Positions 14,524 to 35,792 of a stretch of DNA of 64,000 nucleotides are shown piece after piece. Position 1 is the stretch's first letter. Every line of letters begins with the position of its first letter. Location: contig NW_002476417.1 of NCBI RefSeq assembly GCF_000189635.1, positions 186,001-250,000 of the forward strand, read 5' to 3'. The DNA is from Tetrahymena thermophila SB210. Taxonomy: Eukaryota; Ciliophora; Oligohymenophorea; Hymenostomatida; Tetrahymenidae. The position numbers and the translations under genes were made by a program. The notes under the pieces are model-generated. The model searched no databases and was not told the DNA's origin. It saw only the letters and a program-made list of their open reading frames with translations.

Positions 14524-15814
14524 ATGAATAAAATTGAGCCTATTGAGGAAGATAATCTTTAAATACCAAAAAAATTACATGATGTAAATTTGAACAAAAA
14601 TAATACTGAAAGGTGCAGAAACTAAAGCAGTGACTTTTTTTTAAATTCTGAAATAAATAACCATGGTAAAACTATATTTCATTTATATATAAAACTAAAT
14701 ACTCTGAATCATATAATAAAAGAGAAAGTTCAACAAAATGAACACAGAGACATAGAGAGTCCAAAAAATGATGTTTAATATAATGAATCGCATTATTAGT
14801 ACCTAAATCAAAACGAAAATCCTCAAAAATCTAACAAAAGTCACTCTATTGCTCCTTCTAAAAATTAATAATAATGTAGAATATGTCTTTCATACGTTTA
14901 AGATGAAGAGGCTAAGCATTTAGGTTAACTTTTATCTATTTGTGATTGTAAAGGTTCAATTTAGTATGTGCATTATTTGTGTTAAAAAGACTTGTTAGAA
15001 GCTAAAAATGGGAAAACAATAAAAATGATAGTTTATCAAGCAGAAAGACTGAGAAATGAGCCTTCAAGATAAATAATATAGTAAAAAAAGATAGAAAGAT
15101 ATAGAGGAATAAAATTTCATAAATGTGATTTGTGTGGATACAATTATGAAGTGGAATGGAAATCTTCTCTAAAGCTTAGACCTCTTTCACATATGAAAAC
15201 AAAAAAGAAATGCTACCTATATGCTTTTTGTGTACTATTGGTTTCATTCCTGTTACTATTATTTGGTTTAATTTACATTTCTCTGTAATATTAATAGATA
15301 TTTAAATAATATTATTTAATTGAATATTTTACGTTTGATTTTTTTGATATCTTAATAACTATTCTTAGCTCTGAAATTGAAGTCTTCTTATTTACAATTT
15401 ACAATATATTGTAATTCATTCTTTCAATTTTTCATTGATATCTAACAAAAAAAAATAATTAAATAATTCACCTACTCTCTAATTAATTAAGTATTTATTT
15501 TTAATGTTCAATCAAAACAGCAAAATAAATATAGATAGAATAAAATCATTCACTTAAAATACACATTTAAAGCATTTTAATTTACTCATTAAATACAATT
15601 TTTTGGAAAAATAATAAATTTTTTTTATAATAATTATAGGATAGACTACAATAATTATTCTAAAGTTTCTGAAACCATTTTCACCTTCTTAGGATACATG
15701 CTTATTATTTTTGCTATTATTTCTAATACTATTATCTTGCTTGTAGTAAGTTTTAGGCTATTTTTAGTAAGAACCTATTTTGTAAAATCTATTTAAAAGC
15801 AGAGAGTAAAATGA
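14524..15814 (+). CDS. RING-CH (MARCH-like) membrane E3 ligase, copy 1
   Basis: join(14524..15410,15640..15814), 353 aa, TGA 15812-15814. The RING-CH finger has the C4HC3 order: C118-x2-C121, then CDCKGSIQYVHYLC (Cys-x-Cys, His seven residues on, Cys three after it), and finally CDLC. The loop before the last pair is about 48 residues, longer than the usual 11-25. Two membrane hairpins follow: one ending AFCVLLVSFLLLLFGLIYI, one in the second exon (LGYMLIIFAIISNTIILLVV). By family it would pass ubiquitin from an E2 to membrane proteins from the cytosolic face. The 120-residue N-terminus is low complexity. Two paralogues follow at 16856 and 23898, sharing the finger-plus-two-hairpin layout but little sequence outside the finger. 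Confidence 0.85.
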
Positions 15815-16855: not shown

Positions 16856-17530
16856 ATGGAATCACCAAAATAAACTTTAGAAATATCAAAGTAATAATAA
16901 TGCTAGGATCTTGAATCACAAAAAGCATGCAGAATTTGCTTGAATGAGGAAACAAGTTAAGATAAATTTATAGATTATTGTTAATGTAAAGGAACTATAA
17001 AATATGTTCATGAATTATGCCTTAAAACTTATGTGATGTCTAAAATTTCAGACTAGTAAGCTAATTTAAAAGATGTTGTTAAAAATAAATAATATTGCGA
17101 TATATGTAAAGCTGAGTTTTAAGTGAGTTGGAAAAATTCATATCAGCTCATTAACTGGAAAAAATTACTATAAAATGAAACAGCAACATTATTAGTTATA
17201 ATTGCAGGATTTTTGATTATGATAGGCTCTATAATTGTTATGACAAGTACAAGAGAGTAATTTAATTATTTTTAATCTTTTAGTTTTTAATTAATAAAAA
17301 ATTTATTAAATAGTAAAGTAGAATAGATAACAAATGATGAGATCAAAAATATTGTTTCAGTTGTTATTATCATCTTGTGTTGTGTTTCTATTTTATTTCT
17401 TTTATCATGCTAGACCTACATTATTTATAAATATTTAATAATAAAATCAATTAAAATAAATAAAATTGCAAAAATAGAGCAAAATAATGAGTAAAATAGA
17501 CATGTAAATCATTAAGCTAACAAGCAGTGA
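16856..17530 (+). CDS. RING-CH (MARCH-like) membrane E3 ligase, copy 2
   Basis: Single exon, 224 aa, TGA 17528-17530. Compact RING-CH finger near the N-terminus: C25, C28, C42, C44, H52, C55, C81, C84, i.e. CRIC, CQCKGTIKYVHELC and CDIC, exactly the family spacing. Two transmembrane segments follow, TLLVIIAGFLIMIGSIIVM and NIVSVVIIILCCVSILFLLS, about 55 residues apart, then a basic, Q/N-rich tail. Likely a membrane-bound ubiquitin ligase; its substrate is unknown. The finger is about half identical to copy 3 at 23898 (shared KYVH/KYIH and CLKTY), much closer than to copy 1. It converges on the first Rictor gene. Confidence 0.87.
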
Positions 17531-18265
17531 ATCAAAATATTTATTCATCAAACTTACATTAATAAAATTTAAATTAAATATATTATAGTACTAATTTATA
17601 TTTATTTATATATTTACAATCTTTTAATTATTTTATTCTACACAATTAACTTTTATATTTTAAAATATTTTTTTATTTAACTTATTTATTTATTTATTTT
17701 GAGTTATTTACTTTTTAATTTGGTGTTACTGCCGATATATTATTAATCATTATTGCAGTGCGACTTTGAAAAGAATTTATTTTTTTATTTTGATTAATGC
17801 CACAAATTTTCAGTCATTTTTTATTAATTTTTAAATATCTACATAATAAGTTTCTTTATTCTTTGATATATAAGAAATATGAGATAATTTATCTTCATAA
17901 CTTTAAGTGTTTATTGATTTTACCTTTTAATCATATAAATTAAAATACCAAAGTTGTTCATTGTTCCTAATCTATAAATATACTTTCTTATAAAATAAAA
18001 GGCAAATATATAATAAATAATAAAGTTTATTTGCTTATTTTTTTAATTATTTAGCTTGATAACTATCAAAATAAAAATATTATTTAATTTATTTTTTAAA
18101 ATGTTTTTTAAATTTATTTATAAAATCATATATGTAATTTTGCTATTTAAATAATAAAAAAACTGGTAATTATGATTAAGTTAATTTAATGAAAATATAG
18201 TATTAATAAAGTTAATTACATAAAATACGTTATTAAAATAAATGTCTTAAATTACTATTATTAAA
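17531..18265. other. Convergent intergenic spacer
   Basis: AT-rich 3'-3' spacer. The last ~60 bp (from 18203) belong to the duplicated Rictor block. Nothing else seen. Confidence 0.6.
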
Positions 18266-21200
18266 TCAAACAATAGGTTTTATTAAGATTGGATTAGTAT
18301 CCAATTTTAAAAATATCTCTTCAGATGAGAAAAGCCTATCGAAAAAGCTGAGAATAAATTTTCTGTTTTCATGCTTAAATTTATAAAAGTCAAGCATTAA
18401 GATTACATTAAAGAACACATTTTTATCTTCAAAAATAGTTGGATTTTTTTTGGCTATTTTTTTGATTTCTGAACTGGCGTTTTTGTAAGTCAAAGCATTG
18501 CTCATCAGAGCAACATTTTCTAATAACTTATTCTCATCTTCTCCCATTTAGAATCCTTTTTAATAAGCAGTGAGTTTATCCCAAAACTCGTTTTGGTTAG
18601 GCCAGTAAGTTCTTTAACCTTCTTTGTGTATATTTCTGATATAGAAGAATTGTCTCATATTGTTTGGCATTGTAATCCATCCTTAATTAAAAAGTTAATT
18701 ATTGATTTATCAATTAAATAATTAAATGAAGTTACCTAAATTTGAGTTCCAGTGAGAAATCCACTCTTGCTTTTCTAGCTCAATTCTTCCCTATTCTGTA
18801 TTTGCTATCATGTTTAAGATGTAAAGACAAGTTCCTCTAAGAGATAGTATTTCACTTTATTCTGCAAGTGGAACTAGGTGGTCTATTAACTTCATGTCTT
18901 TTACTTTTTTAATACCTTCTTTGCAGTAGCAAATATTTCCAATAGCCCATAAAGATGCTCTTTTATTCATGATACATTCTTTTGGGTTTTTTATGCTTTC
19001 AAAGCAATTTTCTATGATTTTATTTTCCATAAGCATCTTTTAACCTTGTTTTGTTTTGACTAGTTCCCCATAGAAATGTAAAGGAATCTTTTCCTAGTTT
19101 GAACGATTGTTCTCTCCCATTTTCATAAACAAACGTATTTATCTTAACTTAATAGTATTTTGATTCTCATCCTAATCAAATATTAAGTTAATACCTCCTT
19201 TATTAATAATTATTTGTTTATTTTAGAATTAAGGGAATTAACTTTTATCATTAAAGTCAAATTTTATGTGAGTCACATATGGTTCAGCCTAATCATTGCA
19301 TTATTTATCTAAATAATTCTGTTTGAAAAAATATTTTTAATTAATAGGATAATATTAATCTTTTATTTACCTTTCCAACTTAAAGACTGAAGTTAATTTA
19401 GAATTTATAGTCAATTGGAATTTTGTATTTTTCTGGGTGGAGATATGCAGAATATGGGTCAGGAGCTCCAACAAGTATGAATTAGTTAACATTTTATTGC
19501 CCTTAGTATTCGATCTATACCATAAATTGCACAGTGTCCTTATAATCTGCTGTATTGAAATCTATAGTCATAATCCAAGGCATACGATGGATGAAACCAA
19601 GAGTAAGGAATGAATTCTAAGGGTTATTTAGGATATCAGGGAATCTGTAAACATTTGGTTCGTCATAGTCCTAAACATAGTTTAATGCTTTTAACAAGCA
19701 TGTTTCGATTTTGTTGACATAATCTAAATTCTACTGCTCCTTCCATCTTTACATTTATTCTTCTACCCAATTTTATTGCTCACTCATCTTAGATAAATAT
19801 TCGAACCCTAAATCACTACTCAAAAGGGTCATCAAAAATTAATCTCCTTCCTTACCAAGATCTTATAAGCAGGGCTGCTTCTTCAAAAACTCCATTAAAT
19901 ATTATTTTTCTTATGTAACTTCTTTGGCCACACTAAGAGCCTTCATTCTGATATCTTCATTCTAGTTTATATCAAGCTTTTGGACTATTAGCTCTATTCC
20001 CCACTTCGAAAAATCTGTTCAAAAATTTTCGTTTTTATAAATATTATAAAAAAGTATAAAAATATTTTTTTAAAAATTTTAAATTATACAGCTTTAAAAT
20101 ATTTTAAAAAGAATAAGTAATTTATTTACCTATAAATTCACTTCTGTTTAAAAGCCTAAGAAGTTCTAAACAAGATTTTTAAAGGTTAATAGAACCTTTT
20201 TCTAGACAGAACTGAAGGAATTCTCTAGAGTTATTTTCTTTTCCATAATCAAGACAATATAAAATGAGATTTAAGATATGATCTCTTTTGCCCTTATCAA
20301 TAGTAACATAGTTTTTAAGAGTATCCCAAATTTTTGCTTCTTCTAATAATTTTTGACCTTATTTCATTTAGGAGAATAAACCAATCCAACTGATGTATTC
20401 TCTGATCATTTTTTCATTAAATTCAGAAGGTTTCAGAAGCTGTGTTGCTTCGTGCTTCATATCATTACTATAATCACTAACTAAGATGTGATAAAGTTCT
20501 CCCATGAAACTTCTGCTAATACAAATTAGCTCACTTGGAGGAGTAGTTAAAATGTAGGCGCCTTAATTTTTAAATAAAAAAGTTAATTTTATTACATCTT
20601 AAGAATTAAATATAATATTTTATTACCTTCTTATCCAATTTTTAATAAATTTTATATGAGCAAGTAACCAACCTTAGCCTAAACAAAGTTACTTTCCTTC
20701 CATTCCAAAGAAATGAATTGCTTTTAGTGAGGATGGAAATATGGAAGAAGCTTTTTAAGGAAACGATTTTTAAGATCACTGAATTTGCTTTAGAAATAGG
20801 TTTATACTATTTCTAAAATAGAATTCCAATTCCACTACTTACTGTCTTTTTAAATATTTGTATCAGATAAAAGCTTATCAAAATTAAGGTCATCAGATTC
20901 TGTTTCATTTTAAAATTTAATCTTCCCTATTGTTTGTTTATTGATTCTATGAGATGGAAGTCCAAGCTTTAATAATTTTATTTAAACATTTTTATCTCTT
21001 AAGAAATAATTATAAAATAAAAAGGTTTCTTTTTTGTAATATTCTATTTTACCTAAGTTGATAGATAAAAGTTTTCACACTAATACATAAATTTCGAATG
21101 AACAGTCTTTTTGTTTTTTTTGTTACTGTCAAAAACATAATTACCCATGATGCTCACTATATTGCTAGACCAAGCCTTTAAGTCTGTTAATTGTTCATTG

Positions 21201-22826
21201 CATTAATTAGCAGCAGAAATTAAGAAATCAGTGTACTTAGAGCAGTTTGGAAGTAAATTAAACATTAAAGTTGTTAATTGCTTAAGCTATTCTTAAGCTC
21301 TTAGTGATTTTTTTTCATCTTCTAAGCCACTAAGCTCTACTAAAACACTAAATAAATCACAATCGAGGAGTAATTAAATTAAAATCATCAAATAGTAATT
21401 TAAGAAGTGCTAAACTGTTAAAGTCTTTCCTAAGCATTCCTTTCCTCCTAAAGCCAAAAGCTCTCCTAAGATATCATAAATAGCATTCCTAATTTTCTCA
21501 TGAATAGGTTGTCTGAGGGCCTAAACTAAAGACTTCATGGCTATGCGCTAATTACCTTTTTATATTAAATCATTATATTTTAATAATATACTATTTAAAT
21601 TGAATAAATAATAGTCAATTCTTAAATTATTCTCACAACATTAAATCATTTAATTTTTTAATTAAGATAAAAATTACCTAAATAAATCAGACCTTTCCAT
21701 GTTTTTAATATAGTTATGAGAGCTTTTTTAGCAAGCTAAAGTTATTTGTCAAATGCTTCTATTTCCTTTTTATATTCATCATCTGATTATTATTTTGGTT
21801 TCGTTTTTGGAGGGCAATCGATATCAGTAAAAACACCAAATATCTTTGGGAAATCCAGATAAACTCTAATTAAATTTCTATATTCAGGATCATTCAATAA
21901 AAAGAGCAAAGATTAAACGATTGCATCTGATTAAGATTCAAGATTTGGATCTATTATACAGTCAATTAGTAATTTAATACCACCAGACCAAGCACATTAT
22001 TATGGGTTTCCCATGGCAAGTTTTCTTACGATTTCAATAGATGCACTTTTATATTACTCATCAGTACTTTCTGCAAATGCGACTAAAGAATTGGCTAAAA
22101 GTTTAGGGAATGTCTTGGGAGCAATTTCTATCCATCTCTTAATAAATTTTAAAGCTTGATCGATTTCTTACTGCTAACTTTATTAATTTGATTAATTACG
22201 AGGATCAGGTTTTATTTCTCTTTCAAGAGTTCGAGCAATAAATATGGGTATATTGTATTGTATATACTGCAAAGCAAACTTTTCTGATTCAAATATCAAT
22301 CGAAAGAATTTAATAGTGTTCTATCTTAAAAGAGGACGAGTTTCTATCATAAATTAACGAATGACATTAATGATGCTTCCTTCCTCGTTATAAAAACTCT
22401 TTAGCTTAGATGATTTCATTTCACTTAATTTCTTTACTTTATTTACTAATTCCTGAAGTAAATATGCCTTATTTTCATTGTAAAGCTGTGTTCCTTTATT
22501 CTTTGCAAAGAAACGAATCAACCTAAGAGCATCTTAAACTAAGTCCTACTCTGTAAGAGGTTTTTGCTATTTTTTATCATTGGGTTATCCGCTATCTTGA
22601 ATGTGACTCATTTTAATCTTGTAAAACCAAAATAATATTTATAATCAATAATTAATTAGATTTTTACGATTAAAGCATAAATTAAATTCCTTAATATTTT
22701 ATTAAGCTTATGATTGATTTAATATTTCATATCATTAGTATATTGACATGATCTCTATTTGATTAATAACAATAATATTTATTTAATTAGACAAATTTTG
22801 ATAAGATATATTTAAAAGTAAAAGGA
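18203..22826. repeat. Segmental duplication, copy A (Rictor block)
   Basis: About 4.6 kb nearly collinear with 24802-29413. Homology begins about 60 bp beyond the Rictor stop codon and ends about 215 bp upstream of its ATG, then fades into unrelated AT-rich sequence. Confidence 0.88.
18266..22611 (-). CDS. RICTOR: Rictor (TORC2 scaffold subunit), copy A
   Basis: Minus-strand exons 22611-21678, 21555-21053, 20966-20627, 20561-20130, 20014-19371, 19318-18736, 18681-18266; 1283 aa, phases close, TGA 18266-18268. Rictor is the defining HEAT-repeat scaffold of TOR complex 2, which phosphorylates AGC kinases. Recognisable Rictor blocks: the N-terminal domain with ALKFIKRWIEI, LLANSLVAFAE and RKLAMGNPQQ; the middle domain with GQKLLEEAKIWDTLKNY and LNLILYCLDYGKENNSREF; the PLHFYGELVKTKQGQKML block; and the Rictor V domain ASLWAIGNICYCKEGI then SLRGTCLYILNMIANTEQG. 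It lacks the long Ser-rich C-terminal region of animal Rictor, as in other protists. Its neighbour 24874-29197 is a tandem paralogue. Confidence 0.93.
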
Positions 22827-23897
22827 TTCATATCAAAAAAACAATTTCTTAATTCTGCCATATAAAATAAAATAATTTAAATAAATAATCCAAAAAAAAA
22901 TTATTTAAAATAAAAAAGTATTTTTCACCAATTAAAACAATTAAAATAATTTTTATTCTAAAAATTGAGAAAACAATTGTTAAATCAACAAATATAAAAT
23001 TTAGTAAAAGTAATGAATGAACATAATAAATATTTATATTTATTTAACTTTATTTAACAAAAATTATTCTAAAAGCATTATATCAGTTAATATTAATTTA
23101 TAATAATCTTTTTATTTTAATGATAAAAATATAATTTCAATTTTTTTAATATTATTTAGATTTATTTTAATTTGATATTGCTGATAAAACATTAAAAAGT
23201 GTTAGCTCTTACTAATAAAAAATCTATATGAAAATATTTTAATTTAAATAAAACTATTTAAAAATAAATTAGGTCAATTTTAGTTAGAATGTAAAAATAT
23301 AAGAAAGATTTTTATTTACATGCTTTGCTATTAATTTCATAAAGATTTTACTGTTTTAATTATATTTAAGCAAATACAAAATTAAAAATCCTTACTCAAA
23401 AAAAATATCAGAAATTTAATACTAACTTATAATTTATGTTTTAATTTTTAAATACCATTAATTCTTTATAAAAATTTTAAAATTCAAAATAAAATACAAA
23501 TTTAAACTGAAAATGGAAGTCATCAGAAAAATCCTTTTTGCTATTTTAAATTCTTAATAAAAAAAAATTTATTTACATTTTTTTTGATTGAGTGAATGTA
23601 TTTTTATATTGTGATTTTATTAAAGTGAATAGAATTATAAATTATGTATCTATATTTCAAGTAAATTAATCAGCGTGAAATAATTAAAAAATTAGATAGA
23701 AAGATTATAATATTAAATGCTTTTGAATGAATGATTCTTATTCATTCTTTAAGAAATATATAACACAAACTAATTTATGAATTTATTTTTTAATTAAATT
23801 TTAAATGCAGAATCGTATGTAAAAACACACTTTTCAAACCAATTTTTTAATAGATTTACTATAAAGTTGAGTTTTATAATTAATTCTAAAAGTAAAT
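22612..23897. other. Divergent intergenic spacer
   Basis: First ~215 bp are duplicated Rictor upstream sequence (shared with 29198-29413), a candidate conserved promoter. The rest is AT-rich with no gene seen. Confidence 0.6.
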
Positions 23898-24504
23898 ATG
23901 AAAGCTGTATCACAAAATATTGAAGAGGATTAGTAGTAAAAAATATGTAGAATTTGCTTTTGTGAAGGATCTCTATTTAATAAATTTATTTATCCTTGCA
24001 ATTGTAAAGGCTCTGTAAAATACATTCATGAAAATTGCCTTAAAACTTACTTAATCTCTAAAAATCCTCAATAATAAAATTCTATTATGAGAAAATCAAC
24101 AAATAAATAAAAGTGTGATCTGTGCAAAATTGAATTTTAAGTTTAATGGAATAGAAAATATCAAATAAAAACTTGCTATGAAATATTTCAAAGCGAAAAA
24201 TTAGCTTTATTTTTTTTACTATGCGCTCTTGCTCTTTTAGGTATCACTATTTATATCTTAGTTAAAGTTAGATCGTAATAAATTAATTTAGCACATTTTT
24301 ATTTGTCTTTTAAAATATTTTGTTTATAAAAGAGATCTTGAAGATAAAGTAGAAGGAGTAGCCAAAGACGTGGTATCAATTATGTTTCTTATTTTATGTA
24401 TATTCTCATTTATTTTTGTATTTACTTGCTCTTCATATCTCATATTAAAGAGCTTTTTCAAAAGATAAATATCAATATCTTAAATAAAAAAACTATAATA
24501 ATGA
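23898..24504 (+). CDS. RING-CH (MARCH-like) membrane E3 ligase, copy 3
   Basis: join(23898..24274,24333..24504), 182 aa, TGA 24502-24504. C4HC3 finger: C17, C20, C34, C36, H44, C47, C73, C76 (CRIC, CNCKGSVKYIHENC, CDLC). Two transmembrane segments, LALFFLLCALALLGITIYIL and SIMFLILCIFSFIFVFTC. A 58-nt intron falls right after the first segment, so the loop between the two segments is much shorter than in copy 2, which has no intron. Likely role is ubiquitin transfer at a membrane. With the convergent Rictor gene it forms the second RING-CH/Rictor pair of the locus. Confidence 0.86.
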
Positions 24505-24873
24505 AATTAATTAGTAATTAATTGTTTACTTGATTGAAAACAAACACATTTTAAAATATTATTTAAATACAAAAAAATATTTATTTTATATTCTATGTAA
24601 TAAGTTACACATTTTAACTTTTTATAATCAAATCTTTAAAATATTCTAAAAAAAAAAATAATTTATAGATACTTTTGTTGATTTAAATTGCCTGTTTAAG
24701 TTTTATTTAAATATAAGGACGTATTATTTTTTAATATGGAAGATGAAAATTTTATTTTTATATTTTCTTTAAATTTTTGTTAATCTAATCAAAAAATATT
24801 TTTAATAAAGTTAATTACATAAAATACATAAAATACAGTATTGAAATAAATGTTTTAAATTACTTTTAATAAA
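24505..24873. other. Convergent intergenic spacer
   Basis: AT-rich; the last ~70 bp (from 24802) match the sequence just beyond the stop of Rictor copy A. Nothing else seen. Confidence 0.6.
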
Positions 24874-27800
24874 TCAAGCAATAGGTTTTATTAAGATTGG
24901 ATTAGTATCCAATTTAAAAAAGATCTCTTCAGATGAGAAGATCTTATCGAACATACTGAGAATAAATTTTCTGCTTTCATGATTAAATTTATAAAAATCA
25001 AGCATTAAGATTACATTAAAGAATACATTTTTATCTTCAAAAATCTTTGGATTTTTCTTAGCTATTTTTTTAATATCCCAAATAGCCTTTCTGTAAGTGA
25101 AACCATTACTCAGCAGAGCAACATTTTATAATAATATATTCTCATCTTCTCCTATTTATAATTCTTTTTGGTGAGCATTGAATTTATCCCAATACTCATT
25201 TTAGTCAGGCCAGTAAGTTCTTTAACCTTCATTGTGTATATTTCTAATATTGAAGAATTATCTCATATTATTCGGCATTGTAATCCATCCTTAATTTAAA
25301 AAAATAAATTATAAATATATATATATAAAAATATTTATTTTATAATTAAATGAAGTTACCTAAATTTTAATTCCAGTGAGAAATCCACTCTTACTTTTCT
25401 AGCTCAATTCTTCCTTATTCTGTATTTGCTATCATGTTTAAGATGTAAAGACAAGTTCCTCTAAGAGATAATATTTCACTTTATTCTGCAAATGTAACTA
25501 GGTGGTCTATTAACTTCATATTTTTCATTTTTTTAATACCTTCTTTGCAGTAGCAAATATTTCCAATAACCCATAAAGATGCTCTTTTATTCATGATATT
25601 TTCTTTTGGGTTTTTTATGCTTTCAAAGCAGTTTTCTATTATTTTATTTTCCAGAAGCATCTTTTAGCCTTGTTTTGTTTTAACTAATTCCCCATAGAAA
25701 TGTAAAGGAATTTTTTGCTAGTTTAAACGATTGTTCTCTCCCATTTTCATAAACAAACGTATTTATCTTAACTTAATAGTATTTTGATTCTCATCTTAAT
25801 CAAATATTAAGTTAATACCTCCTTTATTAATAATTATTTGTTTATTTTAGAATTTAGAGAATTGACTTTTATCTTTAAAGTCAAATTTTAAGTGAGTCAC
25901 ACATGGTTCAGCCTGGTAATTGCATTATTTATCTAAATAATTCTAAACAAAATTTTTTTTTTAACTATTAGAATAATTATAATCTTTCATTTACCTTTCC
26001 AACTTGAAGACTGAAGTTAATTTAAAATTTATCGTCAATTGGAATTTTGTATTTTTCTGGATGGAGATATGTAGAGTATGGGTCAGGAGTTCCAACAAGT
26101 ATGAATTAGTTAATATTTTCTTACCCTTAGTATTCAATCTATACCATAAATTGGATAGTGTCTTTACAATCAGCTGTATTGAAACCTATTATCATAATCC
26201 AAGGCATACGATGGATGAAACCAAGAGTAAGGAGTGAGTTCTAAGGGTTATTTAAGATATCAGGGAATCTGTAAACATTTGGTTCTTCATAGTCTTAAAT
26301 ATAGTCTAAGGCATTCAATAAACATATTTCTATTTTGTTAACATAATCTAAATTCAACTACTCCCTCCATCTTTACATTTACTCTTCTACCCAATTTTAT
26401 TGCTCACTCATTTTAGATAAATATTCAAACCCTATATCGCTACTCAAAAGAGTCATCAAAAATGAATCTCCTTCCTCACCAAGATCTTATAAACAGGGCT
26501 GTTTCTTCAAAAACTCCATAAGGTATTATTTTTCTTATATAACTTCTTTGGCCACACTAAGAGCCTTCATTCTGATATCTTCATTCTAGTTTATATCAAG
26601 TTTTTGGGCTATAAGCTCTATTCCCCACTTCTAAAAATCTAAAAAAAATTGATTGGTTTTAAAAAAATTATAATATCTACAGCTTTAAAATTTAAAAAAA
26701 TAAGTAAGTAACTTACCTATAAATTCACTTCTGTTTAAAAGACTAAGAAGTTCTAAACATGATTTTTAAAGGTTAATAGAACCTTTTTCTAAACAGAACT
26801 GAAGGAATTCTCTAGATTTATTTTCTTTTCCATAATCAAGACAATATAAAATGATATTTAAGATATGATCTCTTTTCCCTTTATCTTTAGTAACATAATT
26901 TTTGAGAGTATCCCAAATTTTTGCTTCTTCTAATAGTTTTTGACCTTATTTAATTTTGGAGAATAGACCAATCCAACTGATGTATTCTCTGATCATTTTC
27001 TCATTAAATTCAGAAGGTTTCAGAAGCTATGTTGCTTCATGCTTTATATCATAGTTGTAATCGCTAACTAAGATATGATATAGTTCTCCCATAAAGCTTC
27101 TGCTAATGCAAATTAGCTCGCTTGGAGGAGTGGTTAAAATATAGGCGCCTTAATTTTTAAATAGCACAAAGTTTATTTTATTTCATAAGAAGAAATAAAT
27201 ATAATATTTTATTACCTTCTTATCCAATTTTTAATAAATTTTATATGAGCAAGTAACCAACCTTGGCCTAAATAAAGTTACTTTCCTTCCATTCCAAAGA
27301 AATGAATTGCTTTTAGTGAGGATGGAAATATGGAAGAAGCTTTTTAAGTAATCTATTTTTAAGATCACTGAATTTGCTTTAGAAATAGGTTTATACTATT
27401 TCTAAAATAGAATTCCAATTCCACTACTAACTGTCTTTTTAAATATTTGTATCAGATAAAAGCTTATCAAAATTTAGGTCATCAGATTCTGTTTCGTTTT
27501 AAAATTTAATTTTCCCCATGGTTTGTTTGTTGATCCTATGAGATGGAAGCCCTAGCTTTAAATAATTTTTTTAATTAATTTAAAAAAAATATTTTTATGT
27601 TAAAAAAAATTATCAGATAAATGTGTTTCTTTTTTGTAATATTCTATTTTACCTAAGTTGTTAGATAAAATTTTTCACACAAATACATGAATTTCGAATG
27701 AACAGTCTTTTTGTTTTTTTTGTTGCTATCAAAAACATAATTGCCCATGATACTCAGTATATTGCTAGAACAAGCCTTTAAATCTGTTAACTGTTCGTTG

Positions 27801-29413
27801 CATTAATTAGCAGCAGAAATTAAGAAATCAGTGTACTTAGAGCAGTTTGGAAGTAAATTAAACATTAAAGTTGTTAATTACTTAAGCAATTCTTAAGCTC
27901 TTAGTGATTTTTTTTCATCTTCTAAGCCACTAAGCTCTATTAAAAGACTAAATAAATCGCAATCGAGGAGTAATTAAATTAAAATCATCAAATAGTAATT
28001 TAAGAAGTGCTAAACTGTTAAAGAATTTCCTTAGCATTCTTTTCCTCCTAAAGCCAAAAGCTCTCCTAAGATATCATAAATAGCATTCCTAATTTTCTCA
28101 TGAATAGGGTGTCTGAGGGCCTAAACTAAAGACTTCATGGCTATGCGCTAATTACCTTTTTACATTCAAATATTACATTTTAATTATATCATTTTTAAGT
28201 TAAATAAATAATAATTTAATATACAATTAATTCTTATATTATTCTAACAATATTAAAACATTTAATTTTAAATATGACAAAAATTACCTAAATAAATGAG
28301 ACCCTTCCATGTTTTTAATATAGTAATGAGAGCTTTTTTAGCAAGCTAAAGTTTTCTGTCAAATGCTTCTATTTCCTTTTTATATTCTTCATCTAATTAT
28401 TGTCTTGGTTTTGTTTTTGTAGGACAATCAATATCAGTAAAAATACCAAATATCTTTGAGAAATCTAGATAAGCTCTAATTAAATTTCTATATTCAGGGT
28501 CATTCAATAAAAAGAGTAAAGATTAAATAATAGCATCTGATTAAGATTCAAGATTTGGGTCTATTATACTGTCAGTTAGTAACTTAATACCACCAGACCA
28601 AGCACATTATTATGGGTTTCCCATGGCAAGTTTTCTTACGATTTCAATAGATACACTTTTATATTACTCATCAGCACCTTCTGCAAAAGCGACTAAAGAA
28701 TTGGCTAATAGTTTAGGGAATGTTTTGGGAGAAATTTCTATCCATCTCTTAATAAATTTTAAAGCTTGATCGATTTCCTGCTGCTAACTTTATTAGTTTG
28801 AGTAATTACGACTATCAGGATTTATTTCTCTTTCAAGAGTTCGAGCAATAAATATGGGTATATTATATTGAATATACTGCAAAGCAAATTTTTCAGATAC
28901 AAATATCAAGCGAAACAATTTGATTGTGTTCTATCTTAAATGAGGGCGTATTTCTATCATAAATTATCGAATGATATTAATGATGCTTCCTTCCTCGTTG
29001 TAAAAACTGTTTAGCTAAGATGATTACATTTCACTTAATTTCTTTACTGTATTTACTAATTCCTGGAGTAAATATGCCTTATTTTCATTGTAAACCTGTG
29101 TTCCTTTATTTTATGCAAAGAAAAGAATCAACCTAAGAGCTTCTTAAACTAATTCCTACTCTGTAAGATGTTATCTTCTCTCTTGAATATTACTCATTTT
29201 AATCTTGCAAAACAAAAATACTATTTATAATAAATTATTAATAAGATTTTTACTATTAAATAATCAATTAAATTCCTTAATATTCTATTAAACTTATGAT
29301 TTATTTAATATTTAATATCATTAATATATATAAAATGATCTCTATTGAGTAATAACAGTAATATTTATTTAATCTGATAAATTTTGGTAAGATATATTTA
29401 AAAAGTAAAAAGG
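24802..29413. repeat. Segmental duplication, copy B (Rictor block)
   Basis: Second copy of the 4.6-kb block at 18203-22826, same orientation, about 6.6 kb away. Exons are highly similar; introns and flanks differ more in length and sequence. Confidence 0.88.
24874..29197 (-). CDS. RICTOR: Rictor (TORC2 scaffold subunit), copy B
   Basis: Minus-strand exons 29197-28288, 28155-27653, 27555-27216, 27148-26717, 26638-25995, 25942-25360, 25289-24874; 1275 aa, TGA 24874-24876. Same domain order as copy A. Exons 2-7 are identical in length to copy A (503, 340, 432, 644, 583, 416 nt); exon 1 is 24 nt shorter because eight residues near the N-terminus are missing. All reading frames are intact and most differences I read are silent or conservative, so both copies look functional. 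Introns differ (132, 97, 67, 78, 52, 70 nt against 122, 86, 65, 115, 52, 54). Two Rictors could give two TORC2 assemblies; this is inference. Confidence 0.93.
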
Positions 29414-29561
29414 AGTATTAAAAACTATTTTATCATTTAAATAAATAATTAAAAAAATATTTATTGTAAAAAAGTATTCTTTTATAATTATTTTTTTTTA
29501 ATTTATAATTTTTACTATTTTAATTTTTTTTAAATATAAAAAATAAATAAAATATTTATAT
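29198..29561. other. Intergenic spacer
   Basis: Upstream of Rictor B and downstream of delta-tubulin. The first ~215 bp are shared with the upstream region of Rictor A. Confidence 0.6.
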
Positions 29562-31363
29562 TCATTTTAAGTTAGAGTAATTATCATATATATTATCGAG
29601 AGTAAGTAATGCTTCTTCAAAATCAGCCTTTTCCATTCCATATTAATAATATGAGTGAAGATAAGCACTTGCTTTAAATTTAGAATAAGCAGTTTCATTT
29701 ATATTTTAAATAACATTTGCAATTGTTGATCTATTGGCTACTGTTAGCATCATTTTATTATCACAAGAATCTTTGAGCTTATATTCAATAAATTCATAGT
29801 TAAAGCAATCAGGATTCCATTTGACAGGGTTAAATGTTTAATGCATTTTTTTGTCTATTGATTTTAAAGCAGACTCATTACCCTTGATTGACTATATTTT
29901 TTTAAAAGAACAAATTAAGCCTAATTAAAGAAAGATTTAAACTAAAATGCTTACTTTGGTTACATCAAAACTTCTAAAAATTGTCTGAACAGACAGCGAT
30001 ACATCTTTGATTTGTTCTTTATTTCCTTTTAACAAATTCTCTATTTCATTTACTTCTGACTCCTTTGTCGAAATATTCTAAGTAATAAAGTTATCTTCTA
30101 TATTTACTTAGCTCAAAACGCTGTCAATAACTTTTTCCCAATGGCAATCAGGTCCTGTACTTAATGTCTTATTGAAATAGTAAGGAGTCGAAAATACTTC
30201 TACAAACTAAATTAAAAAAAATTTAAATTATTTTCAAAAATATTAATAAACCTTTATTTACTTTAAAATCATCCATAGGTGCTGCATCCAGTAAAATATC
30301 AAAATAAAATCTATCAAAATTAGAATAATCGTTCAGCTTAAGTAAGTTAAATAAATTAGAAGCAATATATTAGTTTATGTTAGTTAAATCTATAGCCTTT
30401 TCAACAGAAGAACTTTGTTTAAAAAGAAGGTTTTAGTTATTTATTTATTTTTAAATAAAATTAAAAAATTGTACCTTCTTGCAAGATTAAGATAGGAGTT
30501 GACTTTATCGTTTTAGAAATAAATAATGCAATCTGAATATTTTTATAGGTGTGCAAGAGACAAAGCACAATTATAATGCTGTAAAGTTGTTTCACCTGAT
30601 TTATGAGGGAAAACAACTGTATTTATTATTTAAATATCAGAAAATAAATCTCTAAATTCTTCAATCAATCGACTTCCAAGTCCACTTCCTGTTCCTCCGC
30701 CTAAACTACTAATCATATGTATTCCCATGCAATAATCGATTTTTTCAATTTCCTTTCTCATGATATCAATTAAATTTTCTAAAATTTAAGTATTTTCCTT
30801 AAGCATTTACTAAGAAGGAATTATCTATTAAATAACAATAGGTGAATTTTTATAAAAATATATATTTTCAATAATTCTTTTTTAAGTCTATTAATTTAGT
30901 TTAAATTATACATGGCTTAAAGAATTATGAGTATTACTTCTTGGTTATTTCCTTTTAGACCTATTTGCAACAAATCTGAATTATTGTTTAATGATGCAGT
31001 ATTTTAGCTTAATTGATATGGCTAACTTTCAGTGAATTTATTAAATGTTAAAGGTTTATTATTCTTTTTTACTTAGTTTTATAGTTTTTATTCATCCATA
31101 TACCCTAAGCTCCAGTTATTTCCTCTTCCATGTTGAAAAAAGAGTACATTTTTAGGATCGATATTATAATATTTTTTTCTATTTTCTATTAAAGGCTTTA
31201 TAATCTTAGGTTCTGTGTCAATATGAATTGAATGAAAAGTATTTTAATCTGAATTCTTCAAATAAGTGTCTTCATAATTATGTGAAGTACTTTCGAAATA
31301 GTCAATTAGTTATAATCCGATTTAGTTTCCACATTAACCTATATCTATTAATAGAGAACCCAT
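29562..31363 (-). CDS. TUBD1: Delta-tubulin
   Basis: Minus-strand exons 31363-30938, 30887-30475, 30412-30262, 30206-29955, 29891-29562; 523 aa, TGA 29562-29564. Tubulin landmarks: IGQCGNQIG near the N-terminus, HGRGNNWSLGY, and the GTP-binding glycine loop SLGGGTGSGLGSRL. Delta-type features are PHKSGETTLQHYNCALSLAHL and the C-terminal block AYLHSYYQYGMEKADFEEAL, which matches human delta-tubulin AYIHQYTKFGIEEEDF better than alpha or beta; the acidic alpha/beta tail is absent. Delta-tubulin is needed to build or keep the C tubule of basal-body triplets. It is about 70 residues longer than the human protein, mostly in a Q/N-rich insertion after residue 90. Intron 4 (29892-29954) is 63 nt and free of TGA, so it could also be read through; I treat it as an intron because it has a canonical donor and acceptor. 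Confidence 0.88.
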
Positions 31364-31924
31364 ATTAATCAATTGATAAATTAAAAATTTTATCTAATTT
31401 TAACTAATTTAAAAATTTATAAAAATTGAAATCTTTAAAGCTACTAAATCACTCTTTTTTTTTTGTAGGTAGAATATCTATCTATATTAAAAAACATTTT
31501 AAATCAAAAATAATAATTACAAAATATTATTTATTAAAACGTCAAATTATAAAAAATTTCATATTAAAGATATAAAATTAAAAAAAAATAGTTATCACCT
31601 TTTATTTTAAAATAGAACAATTAAACATAAGAAGTTGAAAATTAATAAATGAATTAATTTCAAAATTTACTATTGTTAAACAAATAAGAATTTTTTTTTT
31701 CAGTTTAAAAATATAAAATTTTTAGACAAAATAATCCATCAGTCAGTCAGTAAGTCACTAACATTGAATTTTACAAATTTTGATGACTTTAATTATAATT
31801 CAATATTTGCTAAGAATAATATTAAAATGTTTGAATTAGAAAAACGATTTTTATCTACCAAAATGTAAAATAAAAATTTCTTCAAATAATTAAAAATACA
31901 GATAGAATTTAAATTAATTTCATT
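31364..31924. other. Intergenic, nothing recognised
   Basis: AT-rich spacer between delta-tubulin start and the CDPK stop. Confidence 0.6.
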
Positions 31925-35720: not shown

Positions 35721-35792
35721 GGTTCTATAGTATAGCGGTTAGTACTGGGGACTCTAAATCCCTTGACCTGGGTTCGAATCCCAGTAGGACCT
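35721..35792 (+). tRNA. trnQ-CUA: tRNA-Gln with CUA anticodon (decodes UAG)
   Basis: 72-nt cloverleaf: acceptor GGTTCTA pairing with TAGGACC, D-stem GTAT/GTAC, anticodon stem GGGGA/TCCCT with loop CTCTAAA (U33, anticodon CTA), T-arm CTGGG-TTCGAAT-CCCAG, discriminator T. No intron, CCA not encoded. It reads UAG; in ciliates with this code it is charged with glutamine, consistent with all the in-frame TAG codons here. The internal A and B boxes for Pol III are intact. Confidence 0.96.

Follow-up and report, generated by a model that had tools for sequence, protein, structure and literature searches.

The window analysed here, a stretch of 64,000 nucleotides of Tetrahymena thermophila SB210 DNA, holds two Rictor genes in tandem on the minus strand. 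Rictor copy A (18266..22611) encodes 1283 amino acids in seven exons (22611-21678, 21555-21053, 20966-20627, 20561-20130, 20014-19371, 19318-18736 and 18681-18266), and Rictor copy B (24874..29197), also of seven exons (29197-28288, 28155-27653, 27555-27216, 27148-26717, 26638-25995, 25942-25360 and 25289-24874), encodes 1275. Both genes were modelled from the genomic sequence alone and translated with code 6, the code of this assembly (101.0 Mb, 445 contigs), in whose genes TAA and TAG are read through. The assembly also carries a ribosomal L3 exon that aligns with PDB chain 4v8p_BB over 204 residues and differs from it only at the first aligned residue, on the exon edge, and a TERT frame identical to chain 6d6v_A over the exonic part of the alignment, with mismatches at its two ends and in 21 residues that we interpret as an intron. 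Both PDB entries come from T. thermophila, and the genome is accordingly that of T. thermophila or of a very close relative. Neither Rictor model has internal stops, and every modelled intron in both copies has GT-AG boundaries. Exons 2 to 7 are identical in length between the copies (503, 340, 432, 644, 583 and 416 nt), an equality that is only partly independent because we placed the junctions by eye while consulting the A/B alignment. Exon 1 is 934 nt long in copy A and 910 nt in copy B, and this net difference of eight residues is the whole difference in length between the proteins. An earlier account of the same DNA, which we call the sequence-only reading, had proposed two intact tandem Rictor genes of these lengths with matching intron positions and six of seven exons equal to the nucleotide, and the gene models and Pfam domains agree with it on each point.

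The domains RICTOR_N, RICTOR_M, RasGEF_N_2 and RICTOR_V are found in exon order in both copies, all above the curated Pfam cut-off, with bit scores of 119.3, 83.3, 92.0 and 86.4 in copy A and 119.7, 77.2, 84.8 and 82.6 in copy B. Copy B scores lower than copy A for three of the four, by 3.8-7.2 bits, which counts against two functional copies. For exon 1 and exons 4-5 of copy B and for exon 6 of copy A, the best PDB match is to chains named Rapamycin-insensitive companion of mTOR, and exon 6 of copy A also matches a PDB chain named Target of rapamycin complex 2 subunit TSC11. Rictor/Avo3/TSC11 is the scaffold of TORC2, in which it binds TOR and Lst8 and is accompanied by Sin1, and TOR complexes are involved in growth control. 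By tblastn, exon 1 of copy B has no relatives among 118 pattern-matching stretches of prokaryote contigs, nor among 24 such stretches of viral contigs.

Copies A and B are the sole Rictor genes found in the 101-Mb assembly by three six-frame searches, each of which returned two matches, both within the window: RICTOR_N (E<=0.001), RICTOR_V (E<=1) and the exon-1 protein of copy A (E<=1). Comparing all frames of at least 100 amino acids in the window against each other (E<=1e-8, pairs inside 18.0-29.5 kb excluded) revealed no further tandem pairs; the same comparison returned two rows, one an extra row for Rictor A and B and the other for two of the RING-CH genes described below (RC2 and RC3). 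Elsewhere in the window there is a tRNA with anticodon CTA at 35721-35792 (+), which ARAGORN labels tRNA-Pyl and which is presumably a UAG-reading tRNA-Gln, given that TAG encodes Gln here. By eye we also saw tubulin-like but divergent frames that carry the motif GGGTGSG at ~29560-31370 (-).

Each Rictor gene faces a convergent RING-CH gene, as the sequence-only reading had described: RC2 (16856..17530, plus strand; 205 amino acids; RINGv 2.5e-12) faces copy A, and RC3 (23898..24504, plus strand; 182 amino acids; RINGv 2.7e-12) faces copy B. That reading named two RING-CH genes, and both are present, but the set is not complete at two, because a third, RC1 (14524..15814, plus strand; 311 amino acids; RINGv 9.8e-07), lies in the same window. 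Each of the three models has a single phase-2 intron, at a corresponding place in all three, with splice sites picked by eye. In MARCH-like RING-CH membrane proteins, two membrane spans follow the RINGv domain. RINGv is above the cut-off in RC1, RC2 and RC3, and two hydrophobic stretches that we picked out by eye in the translations are candidates for such spans. Amino-acid identity is 36.3% between RC2 and RC3, with a saturated dS of 4.5, and RC1 shares 28.0% with RC2 and 27.0% with RC3. The genome has at least 27 RINGv matches, and the best match elsewhere in it to the exon-1 protein of RC3 is RC2, at 81.7 bits (next 47.4). On these sequence comparisons, RC1, RC2 and RC3 read as an old tandem family. 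A possible second tandem RING-CH cluster was noted on contig C59 (162788-168559), where three RINGv matches lie within 6 kb on one strand.

The two Rictor copies are far more alike. Over 1275 aligned codons the proteins are 89.7% identical and the nucleotides 92.5%, with 130 codons showing silent and 131 showing amino-acid differences. A Goldman-Yang fit adapted to code 6 gave dN 0.047, dS 0.229 and omega 0.206 (95% CI 0.157-0.258 with F3x4 and 0.148-0.258 with F61), and omega of 1 was rejected (LRT 126.6). The pooled introns are 79.0% identical (357 of 452 aligned positions, with 86 gap columns; shuffled control mean 58.4%), so the earlier observation that coding sequence is better conserved than introns is borne out. 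The Jukes-Cantor distance of the introns, 0.247, is close to the dS of the coding sequence. These values also bear on whether the tandem could be an assembly artefact, either misplaced alleles or an error. The similarity of the copies is the only thing that speaks for this; the dS of 0.23, the 21% of intron positions that differ, and the different sequence, including RC3, that separates the copies inside a single contig of at least 250 kb make it very unlikely.

Another possibility is that one Rictor copy is a decaying or silent duplicate whose frame is merely still intact. If one branch were unconstrained, the pairwise omega would be expected to be ~0.5 or more, given equal silent change on both branches. 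Since omega of 0.5 is rejected (LRT 41.1 with F3x4 and 44.3 with F61), constraint seems to have acted on both copies during most of the time since they separated, in keeping with the earlier view that both are under selection and neither is a fresh pseudogene. In addition, there is no stop or frameshift in either copy, GT-AG is retained at all modelled junctions, and the four domains score well in both. On the other hand, the level of omega and the places where the proteins differ could point to decay. In the parts of Xiong et al. 2019 (PMC6564038) that we draw on here, the medians of omega in Tetrahymena are 0.03-0.07 for gene categories III-X and 0.25-0.30 for the young categories I-II. The Rictor value of 0.21 is well above the former and near the latter, so that one copy may be drifting, and because it exceeds the medians of the conserved categories, constraint has probably been relaxed on one copy or on both. 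By exon, omega is lowest in exon 3 (0.049) and highest in exon 6 (0.331); dN peaks in exon 7 (0.099). Amino-acid differences are over-dispersed in 40-codon windows (p 0.008), with 11 in the first window, 12 in the thirtieth and 1-8 in the other 29 of 31, so that nonsynonymous changes are concentrated in exon 7 and towards the N-terminus. Silencing of one copy, if very recent, could still fit these values. Overall, we regard decay of either copy as unlikely.

The extent of the duplicated segment was examined with blastn (word 7, filter off), which aligns 18180..22823 in copy A with 24779..29410 in copy B. Clear homology thus covers ~4.6 kb, comprising the Rictor gene, ~210 bp upstream and ~90 bp downstream, with the RING-CH genes outside it. 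The upstream flank match, of 214 columns and ending at 22823/29410, is 86.9% identical (185/213), or 87.9% by blastn. The downstream match, ending at 18180/24779, is 80.0% identical over 95 blastn columns and 88.4% (76/86) over ~90 bp. The upstream edge is blurred by AT-rich matches. One of these, approximately 22872-22925 against 29432-29481 (54 columns, 79.6%, E 1.4e-9), is roughly collinear and may extend the block slightly upstream; we give it little weight because non-collinear AT-rich matches in the same flank comparison, with the low-complexity filter off, reach E values down to 6e-8.

That the RING-CH genes are far more diverged than the Rictor genes had been pointed out before, and the dS values of 4.5 (saturated) and 0.23 agree. 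The sequence-only reading offered two explanations: that each Rictor and its RING-CH partner are not one duplication unit, or that the Rictor genes were homogenised by gene conversion. We find that the first fits best, because clear homology stops near Rictor, because RC2 and RC3 have a saturated dS and no clear shared flanks, and because there is no recent conversion tract. At its longest, a run of identical silent codons reaches 44, with 42.6 expected (p 0.39). Joint duplication of Rictor and RING-CH in the same event is accordingly unsupported. From the sequence comparison, Rictor seems to have been duplicated in a separate event, later than that of the RING-CH genes, unless conversion subsequently overwrote the whole block.

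In a version of the second explanation, the RING-CH and Rictor genes were duplicated together long ago, and the Rictor genes were later homogenised by conversion while the RING-CH genes diverged. Joint duplication would leave the order RC2, Rictor A, RC3, Rictor B, which is the order observed, and would suit the finding that the best match of RC3 in the genome is RC2. Along Rictor, the silent differences are also over-dispersed (variance/mean 1.29, 1.66 and 1.57, with p 0.008, 0.003 and 0.014, for windows of 20, 40 and 60 codons), which leaves room for older or whole-gene conversion. Against this history, clear similarity ends close to the Rictor gene, no recent tract is seen, and the introns, with their 86 gap columns, have diverged about as much as the silent sites. 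We therefore think it rather unlikely, with the qualification that a single conversion of the entire block and a fresh duplication cannot be told apart. This account is one of history alone and is compatible with both Rictor copies being functional.

The TOR kinase also appears in tandem in this genome. A search for the FRB domain gave two matches, both on contig C214 and 9.6 kb apart, and they belong to two tandem stretches at ~53400-72800 (loci L011-L013, minus strand), each with FRB, PI3/PI4-kinase and FATC domains. Compared by exons and frames rather than as full gene models, these stretches share 57-65% identity across three exons, where dS is saturated, and 38-68% across matching minus-strand frames. 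Because the TOR exons are far more diverged than Rictor and their dS is saturated, the TOR tandem duplication looks much older than that of Rictor. Raptor_N, CRIM and SIN1_PH had no match in the genome at E<=1 and none in any of 14 control genomes either, so that absence of these domains is unproven by this search. A partial search of the literature, which is no proof of novelty, yielded no description of a Rictor or a TOR gene pair in Tetrahymena. Ciliates are described as lacking Raptor in the portions of two studies that we consulted (PMC5745459, PMC12467227). In the available part of the second, a 2025 survey, every ciliate examined has Rictor, and SIN1 was found, among ciliates, in Paramecium only; by its own account, the selection made in that survey could not establish multiple copies in one organism (PMC12467227).

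The two Rictor genes have the same orientation and the same intron positions, both frames are open, and omega is well below 1. Two functional Rictor in-paralogues probably arose in this Tetrahymena lineage by tandem copying of a segment of ~4.6 kb beside an existing RING-CH set. One Rictor gene with its close flanks would have been copied next to itself, at a time when the tandem RING-CH set was already in place. Each protein would then serve as scaffold in a Rictor-type TOR complex, and the two would be partly redundant, as in a dosage effect. Drift would be concentrated in the first ~45 residues and the last exon, and two complexes might differ there in partners or regulation. The sequences most likely represent an in-paralogue pair of the ordinary tandem kind, with partial redundancy, each member a putative Rictor scaffold that drifts at both ends of the protein. 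The sequence-only reading went on to suggest two TORC2 variants, perhaps differentially expressed; two functionally different forms of TORC2 would be an inference from the presence of two genes.

According to the sections of PMC6564038 used here, strictly tandem genes make up 7-14% of the most conserved gene category in ten Tetrahymena species. As tandem duplication is common in Tetrahymena, the Rictor event would be ordinary, and the interest lies in the pathway affected and the coincidence with the TOR pair rather than in the duplication itself. With two Rictor and two TOR genes, this ciliate, a laboratory model, allows the splitting of Rictor-type complexes into distinct forms to be tested. 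If the copies are merely redundant, single-Rictor knockouts in Tetrahymena must reckon with the other copy.

Compared with Rictor/Avo3/TSC11, both Tetrahymena copies have the same four domains, and they differ in being two tandem genes in one genome. At 1275-1283 amino acids they are shorter than the Rictor chain 6zwm_E (1708 amino acids), and no Sin1 CRIM or PH domain was found alongside them in this genome, in a search that had no positive control. Unlike the tandem duplicates in the portion of PMC6564038 cited above, the two Rictor genes have an unrelated gene between them and would therefore fall outside the strictly tandem class of that study. A further parallel is with the paralogous TOR kinases that occur in pairs in fungi and other eukaryotes, in which, as far as the consulted part of PMC2997006 goes, a component of the TOR complex is duplicated and the copies may divide labour; in Tetrahymena both the scaffold Rictor and TOR are duplicated, each in tandem. 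The two TOR proteins of S. cerevisiae are divided between TORC1 and TORC2; for ciliates, by contrast, the passages of PMC5745459 and PMC12467227 that we rely on report that Raptor is missing. The duplicated Rictor and TOR genes might conceivably build two separate Rictor-based complexes and so re-create the TORC1/TORC2 division of labour after the reported loss of Raptor, and with it of the classical TORC1, a prospect that we hold to be distinctly improbable.
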